Assembly: GCA_002839355.1 (NCBI GenBank)
Contig: PGXW01000027.1
Coordinates: 1 to 47,020, forward strand
From: Spirochaetae bacterium HGW-Spirochaetae-2
Lineage (GTDB): Bacteria > Spirochaetota > Spirochaetia > Sphaerochaetales > Sphaerochaetaceae
Direction of reading: 5' to 3'
Length of the DNA stretch: 47,020 bases
Shown: one piece after another, positions 16,330-25,698 of the stretch
Layout: each line of letters begins with the position of its first letter
How positions within the stretch are numbered: position 1 is the first letter of the stretch
Notes under the pieces: generated by a model
Told to the model about the DNA's origin: nothing
The model's input: only the letters and a program-made list of their open reading frames with translations
Database searches by the model: none
Position numbers and translations under genes: made by a program

Positions 16330-17466
16330 ATGGACAAATCCAAGTATAGGGACATTGCCCCCTATGAAGGGCAAGATGTCATAGATGCGGTGAATCGCAT
16401 CCGAGCCTATCCGAAATTCTTGAGCAACATGGCCGAAGTTCTCTACGCTGGAAACATTATCAAGACCAAGTGGAAAAGCCACCAGATGAAAGAGATGATT
16501 CCACCCTTGTTGGATCAGGTCAAATCGTATGACGATTTCCAACGGCTCATCACCGCCGGCGTATTCCTGCCGACAATAGAACGCAACTCGATGTCCTCGT
16601 TCACCTTCAGTGGACAGGAGAATCTTGATCGCCATACCCCCTATCTGTTCATCAGCAACCATCGGGACATTGTACTGGATTGTGCTTTGCTCGATTACGC
16701 GTTGCTGCAAACGGATATGCCGATTTGTGAGATGGCGATTGGTGACAATCTGTTGGTCAACCAATTCACCACCGATATGTTCAAGCTCAACGGTGGGGTA
16801 ACGGTCAAGCGAAACCTCCCGATGCGTGAGCAATACATGGAATCGTTGCGGTTGTCACGCTATTTTGTGGAACTGATCGACGAGGAAAAGAAATCCATCT
16901 GGGTTGCCCAGCGATCGGGCCGTGCGAAGGACGGTATAGACAAGACCAATCCAGCTATCATAAAGATGCTCTACCTTTCCTACAAAGCTTCGGGTATCTC
17001 CTTCAAGGATCTGATCAAACGGTGCCATATCGTACCCATAGCGATCTCCTACCAATACGATCCCAACGATATCAACAAGGGACGGGAAGAGGTATCCAAG
17101 AAACTCCATGGTACGTATACGAAGAAACGGTACGAGGATCTTGTGAACATGTTGCGCGGTCTTCGACGTTTCAAGGGTGATGTACACTTGCATTTTGGAA
17201 AACCGTTGACCGGCGATTACGAGAATGCCGATGAAGTGGCAATGGAAGTGGATCGGCAGATCCATGTCGGGTACAAATTGTGGGATACGAACTACTTGGC
17301 GTATGATCTGCTCCAGGGGCCGACCCGGTTCACACAAAAATACGAATCGTTGAACACCAAGAAGTTCCTCGACCGGTATAAAGGGTTGTCGGAGGACCTT
17401 CGGCGGATCATATTGCGTTCCTACGCCAATCCTGTTGTCATGCAGATGGAAGCCTTGGGAATGTAG
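16330..17466 (+). CDS. Acyltransferase, PlsC/GPAT-like
   Basis: This 378-residue soluble or membrane-associated protein has the acyltransferase motif FISNHRDIVLDCALLD (about 107-122, His111 and Asp113), a later GGVTVKRNLPMREQ (motif II-like) and a WVAQRSGRAKDG segment (motif III-like). Such proteins transfer acyl chains to glycerol-3-phosphate or lysophospholipids. It starts 5 nt after the DHOD-like gene and ends 4 nt before the lipoprotein gene, so the three form a probable operon. The ATG at 16330 was chosen over an in-frame ATG at 16279 inside the upstream gene. Substrate is not determined. Confidence 0.78.
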   Translation: MDKSKYRDIAPYEGQDVIDAVNRIRAYPKFLSNMAEVLYAGNIIKTKWKSHQMKEMIPPLLDQVKSYDDFQRLITAGVFLPTIERNSMSSFTFSGQENLDRHTPYLFISNHRDIVLDCALLDYALLQTDMPICEMAIGDNLLVNQFTTDMFKLNGGVTVKRNLPMREQYMESLRLSRYFVELIDEEKKSIWVAQRSGRAKDGIDKTNPAIIKMLYLSYKASGISFKDLIKRCHIVPIAISYQYDPNDINKGREEVSKKLHGTYTKKRYEDLVNMLRGLRRFKGDVHLHFGKPLTGDYENADEVAMEVDRQIHVGYKLWDTNYLAYDLLQGPTRFTQKYESLNTKKFLDRYKGLSEDLRRIILRSYANPVVMQMEALGM

Positions 17467-17470
17467 CGAT

Positions 17471-18190
17471 ATGCGACCAGAAAGGAAACTGCTTTGTTGT
17501 ATGGTATTGCTGTCGGCGGTTTTGCTTGTCCTGGTCGCGGGGTGTTCCCGGGATGAATTCTCCGTAACGAATGTCTCCATGATTCCCTTGGTTGTCGCAA
17601 CCCATGGAGACAGTGTGCGTTCCACCCTTTCGGAAGGCTACATGTTGGCCATTTCCGCTGGACCACTCGCTTCAGAGGACCAGTACCAGGTTTCGGTGAA
17701 ATCTCCGAGTGGATCCTATTCGTGGGAATTTTTCGCCCAACCGATGGACGTGGGGGGAGCAATGCTCTTGGGCAAGTCCGATCTGCTGTATCCTCCCGAC
17801 ATCCCCTTGGAATCGGGAACATGGCAGGTGGAAGTGTTTCTGTCCGATGGCCGGCGCTTTGTTGAGGTGTTGCAATTCGCACGCTCGGAGGATTTGTTCG
17901 CACCGGCGAGTATGGAAATAGCGTCCATGAGGCCAGCAGAATGGGCAACCGATGGCAACGGCCACCAGATGCTGTATGGTGTCGACCCCGATTCGGGCAA
18001 AAACTGGACCTACGCATTCTACGATTCGGCTGGAATCCTGCTTCATACCCTGGAATCCGCATCGATGGAAAATTCCGATAGCAAGCTCTCCGATACTGGA
18101 ATTCGGGAAAAGACTGCCAGTATCATTGCCTCCCGGTTCGACGCAACTTCGGGATTGTACCACGTGGTAAGAACACTGTTCATCACATGA
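17471..18190 (+). CDS. Predicted lipoprotein of unknown function
   Basis: This 239-residue protein has a lipoprotein signal: a positively charged start (MRPERK), a hydrophobic stretch and the lipobox LVAGC near residue 22, followed by SRDE. The rest is soluble and beta-rich with no domain I recognise. It probably sits in a membrane facing the periplasm or outside. It follows the acyltransferase by 4 nt. An in-frame ATG at 17435 would hide the signal peptide, so the ATG at 17471 is preferred. The last 8 nt overlap the 3' end of mutL on the other strand. Confidence 0.75.
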   Translation: MRPERKLLCCMVLLSAVLLVLVAGCSRDEFSVTNVSMIPLVVATHGDSVRSTLSEGYMLAISAGPLASEDQYQVSVKSPSGSYSWEFFAQPMDVGGAMLLGKSDLLYPPDIPLESGTWQVEVFLSDGRRFVEVLQFARSEDLFAPASMEIASMRPAEWATDGNGHQMLYGVDPDSGKNWTYAFYDSAGILLHTLESASMENSDSKLSDTGIREKTASIIASRFDATSGLYHVVRTLFIT

Positions 18191-19994
18191 TACGGCCGAC
18201 AGCTCTCCAAAGATGGTCCTTGGTGATCTCCACGACAAAGGTCCGTCCATGGGGACATACCGGATGTTCCAATTCAAATACCTTGCGAATCAAGGCTTCG
18301 GCCGTCGACGAATCTATGTTATCGCCATCCTTGATCGCCGCATGGCATGCTATGGTCGCGTAGAGCCGCTTTTCAAGCTCGGCCATGTCACCACCAGATT
18401 GTGAACCGATGAATTCGACCACCGCACTCTCAATCGATTTCCACGATGCGGGGATGGAAGACAACTCCCACTCCAAATCGCCGCTTTTTTGCAAGTCCAA
18501 GCCATATTCGGCATACCAAGCACCATGGTTGGACAAGAAGTCATCGACAGACCGCTCCACCTCGAAACGAAGGGGCACCATAAGCCGTTGGATTCCTCCT
18601 TGCTTGCGAATCTGGTCATAGAGAATCCGTTCATGCGCCGCATGCTGGTCTATCAGAAACACAGAATCTCCCTTTTGTACCACCAGGAAAAGCTCGAAGA
18701 TTTGACCGATATATTGGAACTCCGAATGGTCCGCACCTTGTTGGTCGATAGAAGGTGAAATCTGCTGATCTTGTGGGTCCAAGGGCTTTTTCTCCAAGAT
18801 TTCCTTGGCGCGCTGGAACCACTGCGGATCGGTGGGTTTCCGGGCCGAGGATACATAGGGTTGTTGTCCGGATGATCCCGATTTCTTGGCATTTTCGCGA
18901 TATCCGAATATCGGCTCCTCGGCGGTTCCTAAAGTTTGGGAGATATCGAATGTGCCCTGATTCTCCTGCCTGGCATCGAGGGAGAGGCGGGGGATCGATT
19001 TTCTGATCTGTTGACGGATCATTACCACGACCTGATGGTGGATCTCCGCCTTGTTCCGCAATTTTACCTCACGTTTTGCGGGATGGATGTTGAAATCGAC
19101 CAATTCGGGGTCGACGGTGACAAAGAGGTAGCAATAGGGGAATGCCCCTCCGGGCAACATTTCCCCATACCCGTAGGTGATCGCCTGGACGAGTGCGTAT
19201 TCCTCTATTGGTCGCCGGTTGACGTATATCTTTATGTGGGAGCGGTCGGTCCTATAACAAGCAGGTGTCGTTGCGACTGCATAGAGACTGAAGCGACTGG
19301 CAGTATCCGAGGTTTCGGTGGTTTCGGACGGAACAAGATGCTTATCGTTGGCAAGTGCATCGAGGATCCGTTGCTTGGGATTCGTGGCAGGCAAATCAAG
19401 TTTCAACGCTTCTCCATCGTAGAACTGGAAAGAAATCTCGGGAAAGGCCATAGCCTTCTCAACTATGGTATTGCGGCACATAGTGGATTCGGTCGCCGGT
19501 CGCTTGAGGAACAGCCTCCGTGCGGGTATAGCTGCAAACAGATGGGCCACTTCGATCCGGGTTCCGCTATTCGGACCTCCCGGAACCACCTCGGATTCCC
19601 TGCCGTTGTCCACCACAATCGTTGCTCCGGTACTGCCTGCGCGTGTGCTGGAAATGGTAACCCTGGCACTTGCGGCGATACTGTACAAGGCTTCGCCTCG
19701 AAATCCCATGGTGCCGAGGGAGTACAGGTCTTCCAGTGTGGTGACTTTGCTTGTCGCATGCGAGCGGCAACACAAAGGCAGATCTTCCGATACAATTCCT
19801 ACTCCGTCATCCACAACGGTTATCTTTTCTATACCACCTTCCTCTATCTGCACAACGATGGAGGATGCTTTCGCGTCGACAGCATTGTCTATAAGCTCAC
19901 GGACAACCGAAGAAGGACGATCTATCACTTCCCCTGCGGCTATGCGTTGGGCGACCAAGGGGTCCAAAATATGAATCTTTTGAGGCGTGTCCAT
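18183..19994 (-). CDS. mutL: DNA mismatch repair protein MutL
   Basis: This 603-residue MutL has the N-terminal GHKL ATPase: RIAAGEVIDRPSSVVRELI, DDGVGI and MGFRGEAL. The C-terminal domain has the nuclease metal site DQHAAHE, plus ACHAAIKDGD and CPHGRTF. It is therefore the endonuclease-active type that nicks DNA itself, as in organisms without MutH. A variable linker (about 340-420) joins the halves. The ATG at 19994 is preferred; the longer frame begins with a TTG at 20009, inside the T-tract of the upstream gene's terminator. Neither start has a clear ribosome binding site. Its 3' end overlaps the lipoprotein gene by 8 nt. Confidence 0.95.
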   Translation of the reverse strand: MDTPQKIHILDPLVAQRIAAGEVIDRPSSVVRELIDNAVDAKASSIVVQIEEGGIEKITVVDDGVGIVSEDLPLCCRSHATSKVTTLEDLYSLGTMGFRGEALYSIAASARVTISSTRAGSTGATIVVDNGRESEVVPGGPNSGTRIEVAHLFAAIPARRLFLKRPATESTMCRNTIVEKAMAFPEISFQFYDGEALKLDLPATNPKQRILDALANDKHLVPSETTETSDTASRFSLYAVATTPACYRTDRSHIKIYVNRRPIEEYALVQAITYGYGEMLPGGAFPYCYLFVTVDPELVDFNIHPAKREVKLRNKAEIHHQVVVMIRQQIRKSIPRLSLDARQENQGTFDISQTLGTAEEPIFGYRENAKKSGSSGQQPYVSSARKPTDPQWFQRAKEILEKKPLDPQDQQISPSIDQQGADHSEFQYIGQIFELFLVVQKGDSVFLIDQHAAHERILYDQIRKQGGIQRLMVPLRFEVERSVDDFLSNHGAWYAEYGLDLQKSGDLEWELSSIPASWKSIESAVVEFIGSQSGGDMAELEKRLYATIACHAAIKDGDNIDSSTAEALIRKVFELEHPVCPHGRTFVVEITKDHLWRAVGRIM

Positions 19995-20007
19995 ATGGTA
20001 TCGTATC

Positions 20008-20039
20008 AAAAAAGACCGTCCCCCACCAGAGGGACGGTC
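20008..20039 (-). terminator. Rho-independent terminator between the large surface protein and mutL
   Basis: On the minus strand GACCGTCCC (20039-20031) pairs with GGGACGGTC (20022-20014) around an 8-nt loop, followed by six T (20013-20008). It ends the transcript of the large surface-protein gene 23 nt after its stop codon and lies directly in front of mutL. Confidence 0.9.
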
Positions 20040-20061: not shown

Positions 20062-23000
20062 CTAGAACAGGTTGATATCTACGCCAAGTGTCAATGCGGG
20101 GCTTGTGGCCACGACGCTCTGTCCATTCCATGAACCGGCATCGGGTGCAAGTTCTGCCAGCGTCGAGAGAGTCGCATTGAACGTCATCGGACCTTGGGTC
20201 ACACCGATCGTGGCGTGTATCGCACTGTCGTTGTCGACAAGGAAATTCTTTGCCCGTGTGACGATCGAATCCGAGGAATCGGAAAGGAACGTCGAGAATG
20301 CCGATGCGAAACCACGCCGGGTATAAGCAAGCGAAAGGTCGAACCAGGACAAGTCCAAGGAGCCTTTCACTGTCAACAGGTCGTTGTCGGTATCGGGAGC
20401 CAGACTTGCAGACAATGGAAGCAGGTAGGCTCCTTCCAATCCAAAGGAATCCTTCGTCCAGGAAGTCGATCCACTGATGGTGAAGGACCTCGGGGCGGAG
20501 CCGACGCCAGTCCAAGCCGAATCGAGTGTTGTCAACAATGAACCCGGATTGGTGGAGCGTTCCCGAATAAACAGCGGGTTGAACATACCGTACGAAAGTG
20601 CTCCCTTTTGCATGGATGCGTCGAGTCCCAATGTGAACGCACCAGTTTGCAAACCAACGCCACCGTGGAATAGATAGTTGTTGAAGTTGGATAGGAACGA
20701 CCCGCCTGGGGTATAGAACATCTGCTCGAAATATTCATCGGAATCGAGTCCGACCATGGTTGCGAATGAGCCGGTGATCTCCACCGACAGGTTTTCCTTG
20801 TCAACCAACGGCAAGACAGTATCGATTGTCGGGAACAGGTCGACCCGGTTCATCGTGTTTCGCACATCGATGTGTCCGATTGTCGAAATTCCGAATTCTC
20901 CACCATAATTCTTGAATGGAGCGATCCCGAAGCGCATACCGAAAAGCTGCAAGTCGGTGAGGTTGTTCGCGAACACATCTATATCGAATCGCTTCGTGTC
21001 GAATTTCGCGGTGAGGGCAAGTATATCTTGCAGTGTACTGTCGGTTCTGGTTGAAATACCCCGGACCATCGGTCCCATGGTGATTTCCTGATCACCGTTG
21101 ATGGCGAGACTGAATCTATCACCCTCGGATCCTATGGTGACATGGTCGACAAGACTCAACAGATCTGTGGCCGAATCGAAAACCCTGCCCAGGGTGCTGG
21201 TATATTCGCTTCCGAAACTGAAGGGTGATTCGTCATGTGAATAAAGGGTCATATCCTGCAGCCCCAGAGCTAATGTGGGCCCGAATCCTACCGAGAAGGA
21301 GTCACCCTTTGTGAAACTGATGGTTGGCTTGACGGTAAGGTAATCCTTGTCGGCCGCTCCCAGCACAAATGCTCTCGTATAGGCTGAACTGATGTCCCCA
21401 CTCACCGAGAATGCCTGTTTTGTATCTGGCGAACCATTGAAAACCGATCGTGCGGTCCTCGGGTCGGAGGCTTGGGCCAAAGCCTGTTTTCCTACTGTCA
21501 CACTTGCGCCCAGATTGAATCTGGGAACATAGGAGGTGGGTGATGCCTTTGCCATGGCCAGATCGGCTTGAATACCGAACAACCCATTTCGATACCGCAA
21601 GGCTATGTACGGTTGGGCATTCTTTTCCAGACCGGATTCACCCTTGATCAAGGCTTTGGTATTTGTCAGGAATCCCGAGAATCCACCCGAGAAATCGAAA
21701 AGGTTGCTGAAGGCAGTGAGGAATCCCACCCGTCTGAAACCGGCTGCGGCTTCGAAGTGCATACCCGAATAGGTGGCTTCGACAGAAAGTGTATCACCCA
21801 ACACGGACGAGTCCGCCTGCAGGGGAATGATTCGAGACAAGTCTTGGGCAATCGGCACGTACCACGAACCGGATAGTCCGAGTTTTTCTCCCCGATATCC
21901 CGCTTCCGCACCCAGGATATAATAGATGCCCACATTGGATTCTAGCATCTGTTCGCCCGAATAGTTGGTTTGGTTGAAGGAACCGAACGAGACGACCGGA
22001 TCGTTGGTATTGTTTTGCACAGCCCCGGCAAACCGGAAATCCCATTGCAAGGTCCGGATATCGATGCCACCGGCGAACATGAAGTTCGGCAATATGTCGG
22101 ATAGTTCGCTTCCGGTATCGTTATATACAGTATCGAACGAGAAGTTGTCCAAATCCAATTTCGTGGTCAAACCGATGAACGATTCGACACGGAGCCTGCG
22201 CTCGTTCTTGATTGTCCATGCGAAATCGAAAGTGGGGTAGGCTGCCATTTGTCCGCTGCTGTCGGCGACAACCAGCGAGGAGAGTCCCAGTGATATCCTG
22301 GGGGAAAGTGCATAGGAGATTCTCGCTCCACCGGATTGTGCATTTCCAGCCAACCAGTCGCTCAGATAGAGGTCGTCCGCATAGAGTTCCAATCCCAAGC
22401 TTCCCAACTGGGCAGTGCCGTACAGTCCAAGTCTCTCTTCATAGGGACCCGAGGCAACACCGAGTCTATTTACCAGCAGGCGTTTGCCGAATGCTATCGG
22501 AGTACTGTCGTCCGCGAGAATATAGAGTCCATCGCCGGCCTGTCCATACCGGATATAGTCGAGGAACCTCATGGCGGTACTGGCCAAGGCTGCCGTTCCC
22601 GATTCATCGCGCACATTCCACAGCGTATATGTCGAGGGGGAGAACCAGCTGCCGTCGGTGAGGAAGAATGCCTGCAGTCCTATGGCGAACGCATTGTGGT
22701 TGAAGAAAGGATTGATCGATATGCCGACCATCGGATTGTCCGTTCCCCCCAATCCGTCACGTGATACGGTGAAGGTCGTCGAGACACCCCAATCGGATGA
22801 GTCGGGTGGTGCGGCGGAAGGTCCACCGACTATACCCAACGGTTGTTTGATCGCAAGTGGATCGTCTACAGCTTCCGGTGTCGCTTCTGTCGATTCGGTG
22901 GGGACAACGGCGGTTTCGACCGGCTGGACGACCTGGGTCATTACCGGTGCGGCAACAGTATCGGAAGCAGGGGCTGCCGGTTCCTTCTTTTCGCCAAGGG

Positions 23001-24831
23001 CAGCGAGTCGTGCATCCTGGGAATCGATGTATGCTGCTACAGTCGGATCTTCAGGTACAAAGGAGATTCCATATTGTGCGGCGATGGCGCTTTCCTGGGG
23101 ATTGTCCACATCCTCGACAGCAATCCGGGTAGCATACATGCTATCAACCTGATTGTCGCTGACATGTATCTGGACAATTCCGACACTGGACAATTTGCCA
23201 CCGGCATTCACGATCATGGTCGTGCCGACAATGCGGCCTCCGGCGGGAGTCATGGCCGATTCGCCATCTACTATCAGGTCTATTCCTTCGATCGTTCGGG
23301 CGATATCCGAACTGGAGATTTCTTGTGTAGCGTCGATATTGCCAAGTAGGATGACGAAATCCGCCTGTGCGGACACTTCATCGACCAAAGCCTGGGCATT
23401 GTCCACGATGGTATCGTTGAGATAGGTGATACCTTCGATACCCGCGTGCGGCACACTCAATCCTATCACTGCAACGTGATATCCCTTGAGATCGAAGATC
23501 CCGTAGGGTTCGAATAGAGCATTGCCTTCGGTATCGAAGATATTCGCAGCCAAGACCTTCATGTTGGAGAACTCGGAGGCGGCTTTCGCGGCTTCCTTAA
23601 GGCGTTCGATTCCAAATGCATAATCAGCCGGACCAGGTGCGATCGCATCGTAGCCAAGCATATCAAGGAGCACCGCGACAGTCTCACCCGCAAAAGCGTC
23701 GGCAATAGGAGAGCCGCTGGTTGTGTTTCCGGCATCCAGAACCAGGTTGCGGTCGGACAATTCACGCCCCCAACCAAGCAATGTCGCCAGTCGTGCGTAC
23801 CCGATACCGTCTCCGGCAACCTGGCCATAGGCATCGTTCGTATGGACAACATACACATCGAACGAATTCGGAAGCGTCTGTCGGGTATGGATTGCGGTTG
23901 GAGCGGGAAGATCTTTCGGTTCGGTCCTGTCCGGTTCCTGTTCGGCCGCAATGGTGACCGTGAGGGACAATCCTTCGGACGGGATCTTGTCCACGACTAT
24001 CTCCTTGGCCTTCAGTTCTTTTTCCCCCTCCCTGGTCAACGGAACGGTTACAGTGGTACCTGGACCCGGTCCAACAGGAGCCGATGGTGTCACCGGTTCG
24101 GGTGTAGCCGGTTTTACGGGAGCTTCGACCACCGCTGTCTCGACAACCGGGAAAAGGGGCTCGGGGGCCTTGAAGGTCAAACCATCGGAAACACTGGCAC
24201 TGGGAATCGCCCGTGCGCTGGATTTGTCGGGGTTGATTGAAAGAGTCTCATACGTTTGGAGGGAGACTTGCTTCGCGTTGAGGAACGGATCGGCAAGATT
24301 CAAGTAGGTGAATGGAGGGATATCGGTTATCTGTCTGGTAATGGTGTTCAGAACCTTCACCTCTCCGCCGAGGGAAAACACCAATTCGGCGAAGTCGGAT
24401 GTGACAAAAAGCTCGCCGGGACCCTTGAGTCGATAGATACCGACTGGAGTAGATACCTCGAGTTCTCCGGAAAATGGGGAATTCATGAGGAACGAAGCTG
24501 AACCGGCAACCAGATAATAGGATGGATTGCTGGATACCGTTGCTCCCACCGTCAATATCGATTCGCGTTGCAGGACGATGGTGGAATACGGTCCCTTGAT
24601 TGTGACGGGTTCCTGACCGGAGAGGATGATCCATCCCTCCTTCAACGCGGCTGGGGGATCCGTTTGTGGAACGTAGACTCCCTTTTCGTTGAATTGGAAG
24701 AAGTCCCAATCCACACCATTCGCCACATGGAGATATGAGGTACTTGAAGTTCCCGATGGAGTTGTCGTCGCAGCACTTGCGTGGCTCAGCGCCAACAACA
24801 GCATCAATATTGCAAACATCACTCTTTTCAT
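20062..24831 (-). CDS. Large surface protein: FecR-like domain, degenerate 5'-nucleotidase domain, duplicated outer-membrane barrel module
   Basis: This 1589-residue exported protein starts with a signal peptide (1-20). A FecR-like beta domain follows (about 21-197), then a Pro/Val/Glu-rich linker (207-267), a 5'-nucleotidase/metallophosphatase-like domain (about 325-562), another linker, and a beta-rich region (about 682-1589) ending in GVDINLF, a C-terminal Phe typical of outer-membrane barrels. The phosphatase domain has lost its metal and catalytic residues: NDAYG where enzymes have NDxHG, DAGN for DAGD, GPADYAFG for GNHEFDxG, and VDGESAM for the GGHSH loop. The barrel region is two homologous modules (about 682-1117 and 1137-1589). 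The ATG at 24831 follows AAGAGG; an ATG at 24855 adds 8 residues. Function is unknown, perhaps ligand binding or surface structure. Confidence 0.82.
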   Translation of the reverse strand: MKRVMFAILMLLLALSHASAATTTPSGTSSTSYLHVANGVDWDFFQFNEKGVYVPQTDPPAALKEGWIILSGQEPVTIKGPYSTIVLQRESILTVGATVSSNPSYYLVAGSASFLMNSPFSGELEVSTPVGIYRLKGPGELFVTSDFAELVFSLGGEVKVLNTITRQITDIPPFTYLNLADPFLNAKQVSLQTYETLSINPDKSSARAIPSASVSDGLTFKAPEPLFPVVETAVVEAPVKPATPEPVTPSAPVGPGPGTTVTVPLTREGEKELKAKEIVVDKIPSEGLSLTVTIAAEQEPDRTEPKDLPAPTAIHTRQTLPNSFDVYVVHTNDAYGQVAGDGIGYARLATLLGWGRELSDRNLVLDAGNTTSGSPIADAFAGETVAVLLDMLGYDAIAPGPADYAFGIERLKEAAKAASEFSNMKVLAANIFDTEGNALFEPYGIFDLKGYHVAVIGLSVPHAGIEGITYLNDTIVDNAQALVDEVSAQADFVILLGNIDATQEISSSDIARTIEGIDLIVDGESAMTPAGGRIVGTTMIVNAGGKLSSVGIVQIHVSDNQVDSMYATRIAVEDVDNPQESAIAAQYGISFVPEDPTVAAYIDSQDARLAALGEKKEPAAPASDTVAAPVMTQVVQPVETAVVPTESTEATPEAVDDPLAIKQPLGIVGGPSAAPPDSSDWGVSTTFTVSRDGLGGTDNPMVGISINPFFNHNAFAIGLQAFFLTDGSWFSPSTYTLWNVRDESGTAALASTAMRFLDYIRYGQAGDGLYILADDSTPIAFGKRLLVNRLGVASGPYEERLGLYGTAQLGSLGLELYADDLYLSDWLAGNAQSGGARISYALSPRISLGLSSLVVADSSGQMAAYPTFDFAWTIKNERRLRVESFIGLTTKLDLDNFSFDTVYNDTGSELSDILPNFMFAGGIDIRTLQWDFRFAGAVQNNTNDPVVSFGSFNQTNYSGEQMLESNVGIYYILGAEAGYRGEKLGLSGSWYVPIAQDLSRIIPLQADSSVLGDTLSVEATYSGMHFEAAAGFRRVGFLTAFSNLFDFSGGFSGFLTNTKALIKGESGLEKNAQPYIALRYRNGLFGIQADLAMAKASPTSYVPRFNLGASVTVGKQALAQASDPRTARSVFNGSPDTKQAFSVSGDISSAYTRAFVLGAADKDYLTVKPTISFTKGDSFSVGFGPTLALGLQDMTLYSHDESPFSFGSEYTSTLGRVFDSATDLLSLVDHVTIGSEGDRFSLAINGDQEITMGPMVRGISTRTDSTLQDILALTAKFDTKRFDIDVFANNLTDLQLFGMRFGIAPFKNYGGEFGISTIGHIDVRNTMNRVDLFPTIDTVLPLVDKENLSVEITGSFATMVGLDSDEYFEQMFYTPGGSFLSNFNNYLFHGGVGLQTGAFTLGLDASMQKGALSYGMFNPLFIRERSTNPGSLLTTLDSAWTGVGSAPRSFTISGSTSWTKDSFGLEGAYLLPLSASLAPDTDNDLLTVKGSLDLSWFDLSLAYTRRGFASAFSTFLSDSSDSIVTRAKNFLVDNDSAIHATIGVTQGPMTFNATLSTLAELAPDAGSWNGQSVVATSPALTLGVDINLF

Positions 24832-24900
24832 GTGCGCCATCCTCTTCATTTTCATGCTTCTACATTACTCCAAATCACGATTGACCGCAACTGTGTTCGA

Positions 24901-25698
24901 CTATTCCAAGGGTTCGGAATCCTCGTTTTCCCTTGGAATCCGGTACTCGAATTGATGGGCATTGTAGATATGTTCCCGCATATCCCTATCAAGATGGGCC
25001 AAGTCCCGTACGATAGGTTTCAGGCGGGAACGGATATTCGTCTGGTCGTGGGGGCACACCGGTTTCACCGAAGGCAACCGATACACTTCGTTCAGCCGTC
25101 TGGTAGTCTGCTCATGCACTTCGATCATCGGGCGGATAATGTGGAGCTTGCCACCGAAGAACTCCTGGACTGGAAGCATGGTTGAGAACTTCGCACGGCT
25201 GGTCAGGTTCAGCAGTGTGGTCTCCACCAGATCGTCGAGGTGATGTCCCATCGCGATAAGCTTGCACCCATGCTGCGAGGCATATTCGAAGAGTATCCTT
25301 CTCCGATTCCTGGAGCAGAGGTAGCAGTTGAACTCGCCCTTGAAACTGTCGGGATATTGTGCTTCGTCCAGGATTGTCAGCGGAATGCCCAGTGCAGCGA
25401 AATACTCGACCAATTTTTCCCGGGACTGAAAGTCGATCGGGTGTTCGATCCAGTTGATCATCACCGCCTGCATCGAGTAGGTGATCGGCAGCCATTTCAG
25501 GCGTATGGAGAGTGCAAGTGCCAAGGCAAGGGAATCCTTGCCTCCCGATACGCTCAGCAGGACAGAATCGTCCGCTTTGATCATTCCGTGTCTATTGATG
25601 GCCTTTCCCGTCAACTTGATGAAGCGCATCACCCATGGGGGGATGTCTCCGGCGAGCAATTCCCTCCAATCGTGCGCTTGGTCGTGTGTGTCATCCAT
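24901..25698 (-). CDS. TtcA-like tRNA 2-thiolation PP-loop ATPase
   Basis: This 265-residue protein belongs to the TtcA/TilS PP-loop family. The ATP-binding SGGKDS is at 51-56. A CYLC pair (Cys125, Cys128) and a later VCPHDQ cysteine match the three-cysteine iron-sulfur site of the TtcA group. GHHLDDLVET near 172 is also typical. TtcA makes 2-thiocytidine at tRNA position 32; related proteins thiolate other positions, so the target is not certain. It overlaps the upstream HD-domain gene by 8 nt, suggesting translational coupling. Confidence 0.85.
   Translation of the reverse strand: MDDTHDQAHDWRELLAGDIPPWVMRFIKLTGKAINRHGMIKADDSVLLSVSGGKDSLALALALSIRLKWLPITYSMQAVMINWIEHPIDFQSREKLVEYFAALGIPLTILDEAQYPDSFKGEFNCYLCSRNRRRILFEYASQHGCKLIAMGHHLDDLVETTLLNLTSRAKFSTMLPVQEFFGGKLHIIRPMIEVHEQTTRRLNEVYRLPSVKPVCPHDQTNIRSRLKPIVRDLAHLDRDMREHIYNAHQFEYRIPRENEDSEPLE

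Follow-up and report, generated by a model that had tools for sequence, protein, structure and literature searches.

Gene context and domain architecture

The window, i.e., the whole stretch of 47,020 nucleotides that was analysed, carries on its reverse strand a gene of 1597 codons (20062..24855) whose open reading frame has two plausible starts, ATG 24855 and ATG 24831. The second, which was the start used in the earlier note, is preceded by AGAGG at good spacing, and its Shine-Dalgarno spacing is the better of the two. The genome is that of a Sphaerochaetaceae-like spirochaete, with HGW-Spirochaetae-4 as the closest named record (92%). On the same strand, the gene lies between two conserved neighbours, a TtcA-like gene upstream (24901..25698) and mutL downstream (18183..20009), and a strong terminator-like hairpin of 11 pairs followed by a T-run (20014..20039, reverse strand) is located just past the stop codon, before mutL. 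A small lipoprotein-like ORF (..VLVAGCSRDEF..; 17435-18190 of the window) is flanked by an acyltransferase-like gene and mutL, and short lipoprotein ORFs of a similar kind adjoin mutL in relatives, e.g., L118 3184-3654 and L133 115-720.

The encoded protein, called the window protein below, begins with the signal peptide MKMKRMAHMKRVMFAILMLLLALSHASA (24769..24855, reverse strand), read from the sequence as a hydrophobic stretch, and continues with a FecR-like domain, a 5'-nucleotidase domain and two C-terminal modules, M1 and M2. The nucleotidase domain is preceded by linker 1 (residues 226-325; 23881..24180, reverse strand), which is rich in Pro, Ala, Val and Glu and faster evolving (dN 0.079), and is followed by linker 2 (residues 621-680; 22816..22995, reverse strand; dN 0.17). 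The counterpart in the sister genome is 92% identical, and the comparison of the two gave dN/dS values of 0.086 for the N-terminal domain, 0.105 for the nucleotidase domain, 0.055 for M1, 0.093 for M2 and 0.16-0.19 for the linkers. All domains are under purifying selection, and the 92% conservation at a dN/dS of 0.05-0.11 per domain shows that this is a real and functional gene.

The FecR-like domain occupies residues 40-225 (24181..24738, reverse strand) and was assigned by hhalign to the N-termini of distant relatives, the gene B proteins described below. The name FecR-like, already given in the earlier note, is borne out by homology to these FecR-containing N-termini (93.5%, E 2.4e-7), which themselves exceed the PF04773 cut-off (46 and 37 bits vs 24). 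The window protein gave no PF04773 match in Pfam even at E 10, so that the gathering score was not reached; FecR was matched weakly in 2 of 12 close homologues (best E 0.0025), and the N-domain profile found nothing credible in the PDB. Unlike the FecR proteins of PF04773, which include LipL45 and Lsa33 of Leptospira, the window N-terminus thus stays below the cut-off, and it is not set in an anti-sigma or lipoprotein context.

A 5'-nucleotidase domain without its active site

Residues 326-620 (22996..23880, reverse strand) were identified by profile, fold and residue alignment as a catalytically dead 5'-nucleotidase (metallophosphatase) domain. The profile matched 5'-nucleotidase models of the UshA/CD73 type (1ush, E 5e-15), and Foldseek, run on a model built from three sequences (pLDDT 59), gave UshA and CD73 as its top PDB matches (1hp1, E 2.9e-13); the overall fold is kept, as the earlier note had supposed. 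The UshA-type reference positions are the metal ligands D41, H43, D84, N116, H217, H252 and Q/H254 and the catalytic pair H117/D120. Alignment to UshA and to intact paralogues showed that D41 (D341 in the window protein) alone is kept, while eight of the nine positions are replaced: in UshA numbering, H43 by Y343, D84 by N377, N116 by P409, H117 by A410, D120 by A413 and H217 by N506, and the GHxH motif, which contributes the remaining two positions, reads GESA, with E and A in their place. The metal site is therefore not intact, and the description of a domain lacking nearly every metal or catalytic residue was accurate apart from a single surviving Asp.

The window domain thus shares its sequence profile and fold with UshA and CD73, but it has lost the active site, is fused to the FecR-like domain and the predicted barrels, and is not followed by 5_nucleotid_C, a domain for which Pfam gave no match in the window protein and which was found only in a lipoprotein paralogue. 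Across genera the dead domain retains 43-62% identity, and the purifying selection acting on it (dN/dS 0.10) argues that it is functional.

Duplicated C-terminal modules

Modules M1 (residues 681-1126; 21478..22815, reverse strand) and M2 (residues 1127-1597; 20065..21477, reverse strand; ending in ...GVDINLF), of about 450 residues each, are both predicted beta-barrels. They are homologous according to BLASTP (E 5e-6) and to profile-profile comparison with hhalign (probability 99.9, E 9.5e-34, 412 columns), and both motif pairs by which the duplication had first been noticed fall in shared alignment columns. The protein ends in Phe, as had been observed (...LTLGVDINLF), and a C-terminal aromatic residue is found in M2, in nearly all single-module gene A relatives and in most gene A/B proteins.

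Other features also point to the outer membrane. Alternating hydrophobicity, expressed as z against shuffled profiles, reached 4.9 for M1, 4.5 for M2 and 4.8 for gene A, compared with -1.6 for the nucleotidase control; sequence analysis found no transmembrane helix in M1, M2 or gene A; and the signal peptide, the C-terminal aromatic residue and the missing helix are together those expected of outer-membrane barrels. Two of the 15 gene A members gave weak matches to OMP_b-brl. AlphaFold prediction of M1 from a four-row alignment (both modules of the window protein and of L009) reached a pLDDT of only 27 and was discarded, and the M1, M2 and gene A profiles found nothing credible in the PDB. A PDB match to WhiA (E 0.075) and Pfam matches to DUF4347, Cas1 and YaiO, each in a single member, were judged to be due to chance.

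There is good sequence evidence that M1 and M2 would be outer-membrane beta-barrels, and most likely two barrels rather than one split barrel, since relatives with one module, gene A and single-barrel gene B, are complete proteins in themselves. Outer-membrane proteins that contain more than one barrel domain have reportedly been described (Solan et al. 2021); the window protein likewise combines two homologous barrel-like modules in a single chain, as judged here from sequence.

A phylum-wide gene pair

The earlier note had called for a profile search for the module elsewhere, and the combined M1/M2 profile found matches in 108 of the 393 sampled Spirochaetota genomes. The related gene A profile matched in 134 of the 393, in 93 of 167 genera, usually as two adjacent matches. 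The underlying two-gene unit consists of gene A, for a barrel-like protein of about 450 aa, and gene B, which joins FecR to a module of about 430 aa, arranged in Sphaerochaetaceae in the order HD-TtcA-[A]-B-mutL; many distant families also have the unit next to mutL. The window protein has the traits of gene B, namely module homology, an N-terminal FecR-like domain and a place beside mutL. Profiles of gene A and of distant gene B are clearly homologous (hhalign 100%, E 3.5e-54), and the module is covered by no Pfam family and no PDB chain. No relatives of the window protein were found in the viral contigs scanned. In several distant spirochaetes, gene A has upstream of it a gene for a protein of about 1600 aa without a Pfam match (L100 205-5094, L102 126-5009), which may belong to the same unit.

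In the maximum-likelihood tree of the modules, every gene B module from Sphaerochaetaceae, including M1 and M2, falls into one clade separate from gene A (support 100), and the M2 copies cluster away from M1 and the single-barrel proteins. This topology rules out the origin of M1 and M2 by fusion of gene A with gene B and indicates a barrel duplication inside gene B near the base of Sphaerochaetaceae, with later loss of M2, e.g., in g17. Gene A is absent from the window's genome and genus. It accompanies a single-barrel gene B in genera g12, g13, g14 and g17, and double-barrel gene B without gene A occurs in g1, g2, g6, g9, g11, g16 and g20. A strict mutual exclusion of gene A and M2 was rejected, as g18 has both and g5, g7 and g21 have a single barrel without gene A.

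The architecture of gene B varies further among relatives. In genus g2 (L134), FecR and the double barrel lie on separate ORFs. In G080 (L124 2995-8440), gene B is split into an ORF with the N-terminus and three dead domains and a barrel ORF overlapping it by 17 bases, which is either a frameshift or a true split. The gene B of g7 (L118 5482-9270, L119 714-4541) has a middle region of about 600 residues between FecR and the barrel, which profile search showed to be unrelated to the nucleotidase domain. The nucleotidase insertion is present in g1, g5, g6, g9, g13, g16 and g20 and absent in g7, g12, g14, g17 and g18.

By these comparisons the window protein is a Sphaerochaetaceae variant of an uncharacterised, phylum-wide family of predicted FecR-barrel proteins. 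The domain set singled out in the earlier note is indeed unusual, but it is not unique: it is a local variant of this family, and its dead nucleotidase part is a shared module that also occurs in a lipoprotein nucleotidase.

Comparison with ImpL63 and the question of location

The one named relative is ImpL63 of Leptospira (NCBIfam NF047543), which hhalign places in one superfamily with gene A (98.3%, E 1e-14) and with distant gene B (96.6%, E 7e-10); a nucleotidase control did not match. The module profile also matched an ImpL63-type ORF in G319. The direct comparison of M1 and M2 with ImpL63 by hhalign was not significant (0.2-2.6%), and the link runs via gene A/B. The window protein likewise gave no match to NF047543, for which the curated cut-off is 1000 bits. 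ImpL63 shares the aromatic C-terminus of the gene A/B family; unlike gene B, it has one module and neither a FecR nor a nucleotidase domain.

ImpL63 has been used as an inner-membrane marker, being Triton X-114-insoluble and not surface-biotinylated (PMC2698987, PMC2780356), and this label is the main conflict with an outer-membrane placement. Together with the poor structure prediction of M1, it would fit modules that are beta-rich periplasmic or inner-membrane-associated domains instead of barrels. We consider such a reading unlikely, given the signal peptide and the amphipathic alternating strands without a transmembrane helix, the C-terminal aromatic signature and the weak OMP_b-brl matches. 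Moreover, detergent insolubility does not exclude outer-membrane barrels: OmpL36 and OmpL37, both predicted leptospiral outer-membrane proteins, were also largely Triton insoluble in the same literature.

Origin and amplification of the dead domains

The dead domain of the window protein is most closely related to that of a Sphaerochaetaceae lipoprotein, which has the same replacement pattern (DAGN, GPADF, LGNI, DGKGAM). In contrast to the window protein, this lipoprotein has a lipobox, a live nucleotidase domain and 5_nucleotid_C, and carries no FecR and no barrels. In relatives it contains one to three dead domains followed by one live nucleotidase, whose metal site is intact (NDVHG, DAGD, GNHDF, GHxH), and the 5_nucleotid_C domain; the window's own genome also encodes such a dead-plus-live lipoprotein, split over contigs.

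In the tree of nucleotidase domains, the window's dead domain groups with lipoprotein dead domains of related genera, and the barrel-protein copy of L052 nests inside the lipoprotein dead domains (support 86), while the dead domains of genus g17 arise from among the live domains of that genus (support 100). The signatures differ accordingly: NSGS, QAVQL and NGSA in g17, DAGN, GPADY and GESA in the window lineage, and ATGN, SNV and ASEE in g13. As the tree is midpoint-rooted and several deep nodes have moderate supports, the safe reading is that dead nucleotidase domains arose at least twice independently, with differing replacement residues. The classes "live" and "part" were set by a crude motif filter, and on residue check all domains filtered as "part" had an intact or near-intact metal site. 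In G077, one lipoprotein-type protein (L140 2497-5334) has two copies, both with near-intact metal sites and one with GEH instead of GNH, which may show inactivation at an early stage.

Two or three dead domains stand in tandem in the lipoprotein nucleotidases at L136 1856-6676, L137 2138-5977 and L138 2119-6066, which come from complete or near-complete genomes. The tandem copies of L136 and L137 share 99.9-100% DNA identity over 870 nt in a unit of about 1 kb (complete genomes), those of L138 share 99.4%, and the three dead copies of the L124 gene B protein share 96-98%. Judging from the sequences, the 99.4-100% identity in L136, L137 and L138 is the mark of a recent amplification or gene conversion. 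Contigs of several relatives break within dead-domain genes, as expected for near-identical repeats, and the single dead copy in the window could therefore be a collapsed array. Periscope proteins, which are length-variable surface adhesins with near-identical tandem repeats (PMC8201768), similarly place tandem folded domains of high identity between an anchor and a functional end; their folds are others, whereas the repeat here is a pseudoenzyme, seen in tandem in relatives and as one copy in the window gene.

Proposed function

A domain that precedes an outer-membrane barrel in the chain normally lies in the periplasm. Since both the FecR-like and the dead nucleotidase domain precede M1 and M2, they should face the periplasm. 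We propose, at about even chances, that the window protein is a two-barrel outer-membrane member of the gene B family with a non-catalytic periplasmic arm used as a spacer or for docking. Its ancestor would have been a gene B protein with a signal peptide, a periplasmic FecR-like domain and a C-terminal barrel. Within Sphaerochaetaceae, the barrel module was duplicated in tandem to give M1 and M2, and a 5'-nucleotidase domain was inserted that should be unable to bind metal or to cleave. After export, M1 and M2 would sit in the outer membrane as a linked pair of barrels, with the FecR-like and dead domains suspended in the periplasm on Pro/Ala linkers. There, the dead domain may act as a rigid spacer, as a docking module or as both.

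A spacer or docking role is suggested by a pseudoenzyme that was repeatedly reinvented, is under selection, and separates an anchor from a working part in differing copy numbers; the binding or structural role suggested in the earlier note agrees with it. As a spacer, the domain would keep the barrels a fixed distance away from a partner in the periplasm, which fits the one to three near-identical dead copies before the live head of the lipoprotein and the gene B protein that has three. A pure spacer would not need replacement residues that are conserved and lineage-specific, and this counts against the option. As a docking module, it would contact the related dead-plus-live nucleotidase lipoprotein, a proposed contact that is attractive because the lipoprotein carries the same module. 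A wider generalisation, possible although doubtful, is that in Sphaerochaetaceae the 5'-nucleotidase domain has repeatedly become a dead, recently amplified and length-variable spacer of the diderm envelope, placed in the lipoprotein before the live nucleotidase and in the FecR-barrel protein between the FecR-like anchor and a two-barrel outer-membrane protein.

The dead domain might instead be a ligand sensor that binds a nucleotide or nucleoside uncleaved, so as to gate the barrels or load them in the manner of a porin-attached periplasmic binding domain. Its selected sequence and the fold it shares with the nucleotide-handling UshA and CD73 would suit such a role. However, UshA-type enzymes bind the nucleoside mainly by the C-terminal 5_nucleotid_C domain, which Pfam places in the lipoprotein only, and the metal/phosphate site is destroyed, which makes a sensor quite unlikely.

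The earlier note spoke of a surface protein, possibly a novel adhesin, secretion or receptor device. The FecR-like and nucleotidase domains would then be displayed outside, contacting surfaces or other cells. The near-identical tandem repeats of relatives resemble those of length-variable surface proteins (PMC8201768), and related Leptospira FecR proteins, e.g., Lsa33 (a weak match), are annotated as surface adhesins. Nevertheless, the domains occupy the normal periplasmic position, so that the barrel loops alone would be exposed; there is no sign of two-partner or autotransporter secretion, and the core family is a conserved cassette found mostly in non-pathogenic spirochaetes. We regard display at the surface as very unlikely, and the suggested device narrows to a lineage-specific elaboration of a spirochaete envelope family. 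That the dead domain is a neutral leftover of domain shuffling, as its absence from many relatives of the gene B family might imply, is already disfavoured and extremely improbable in view of its dN/dS, its identity across genera, its conserved replacement residues and its repeated independent origin.

Barrel proteins with periplasmic domains and pseudoenzymes are both already known kinds of protein. The locus brings to light an envelope gene pair that spans the phylum, lacks a Pfam family and a solved structure, and has a single named relative, whose location is disputed; the gene A/B pair thus marks a gap in what is known of the spirochaete outer membrane. The locus also presents a pseudoenzyme that has arisen recurrently from one domain family and was then amplified in near-identical tandem, and these recurrent dead nucleotidase domains make the use of dead enzyme domains directly testable.
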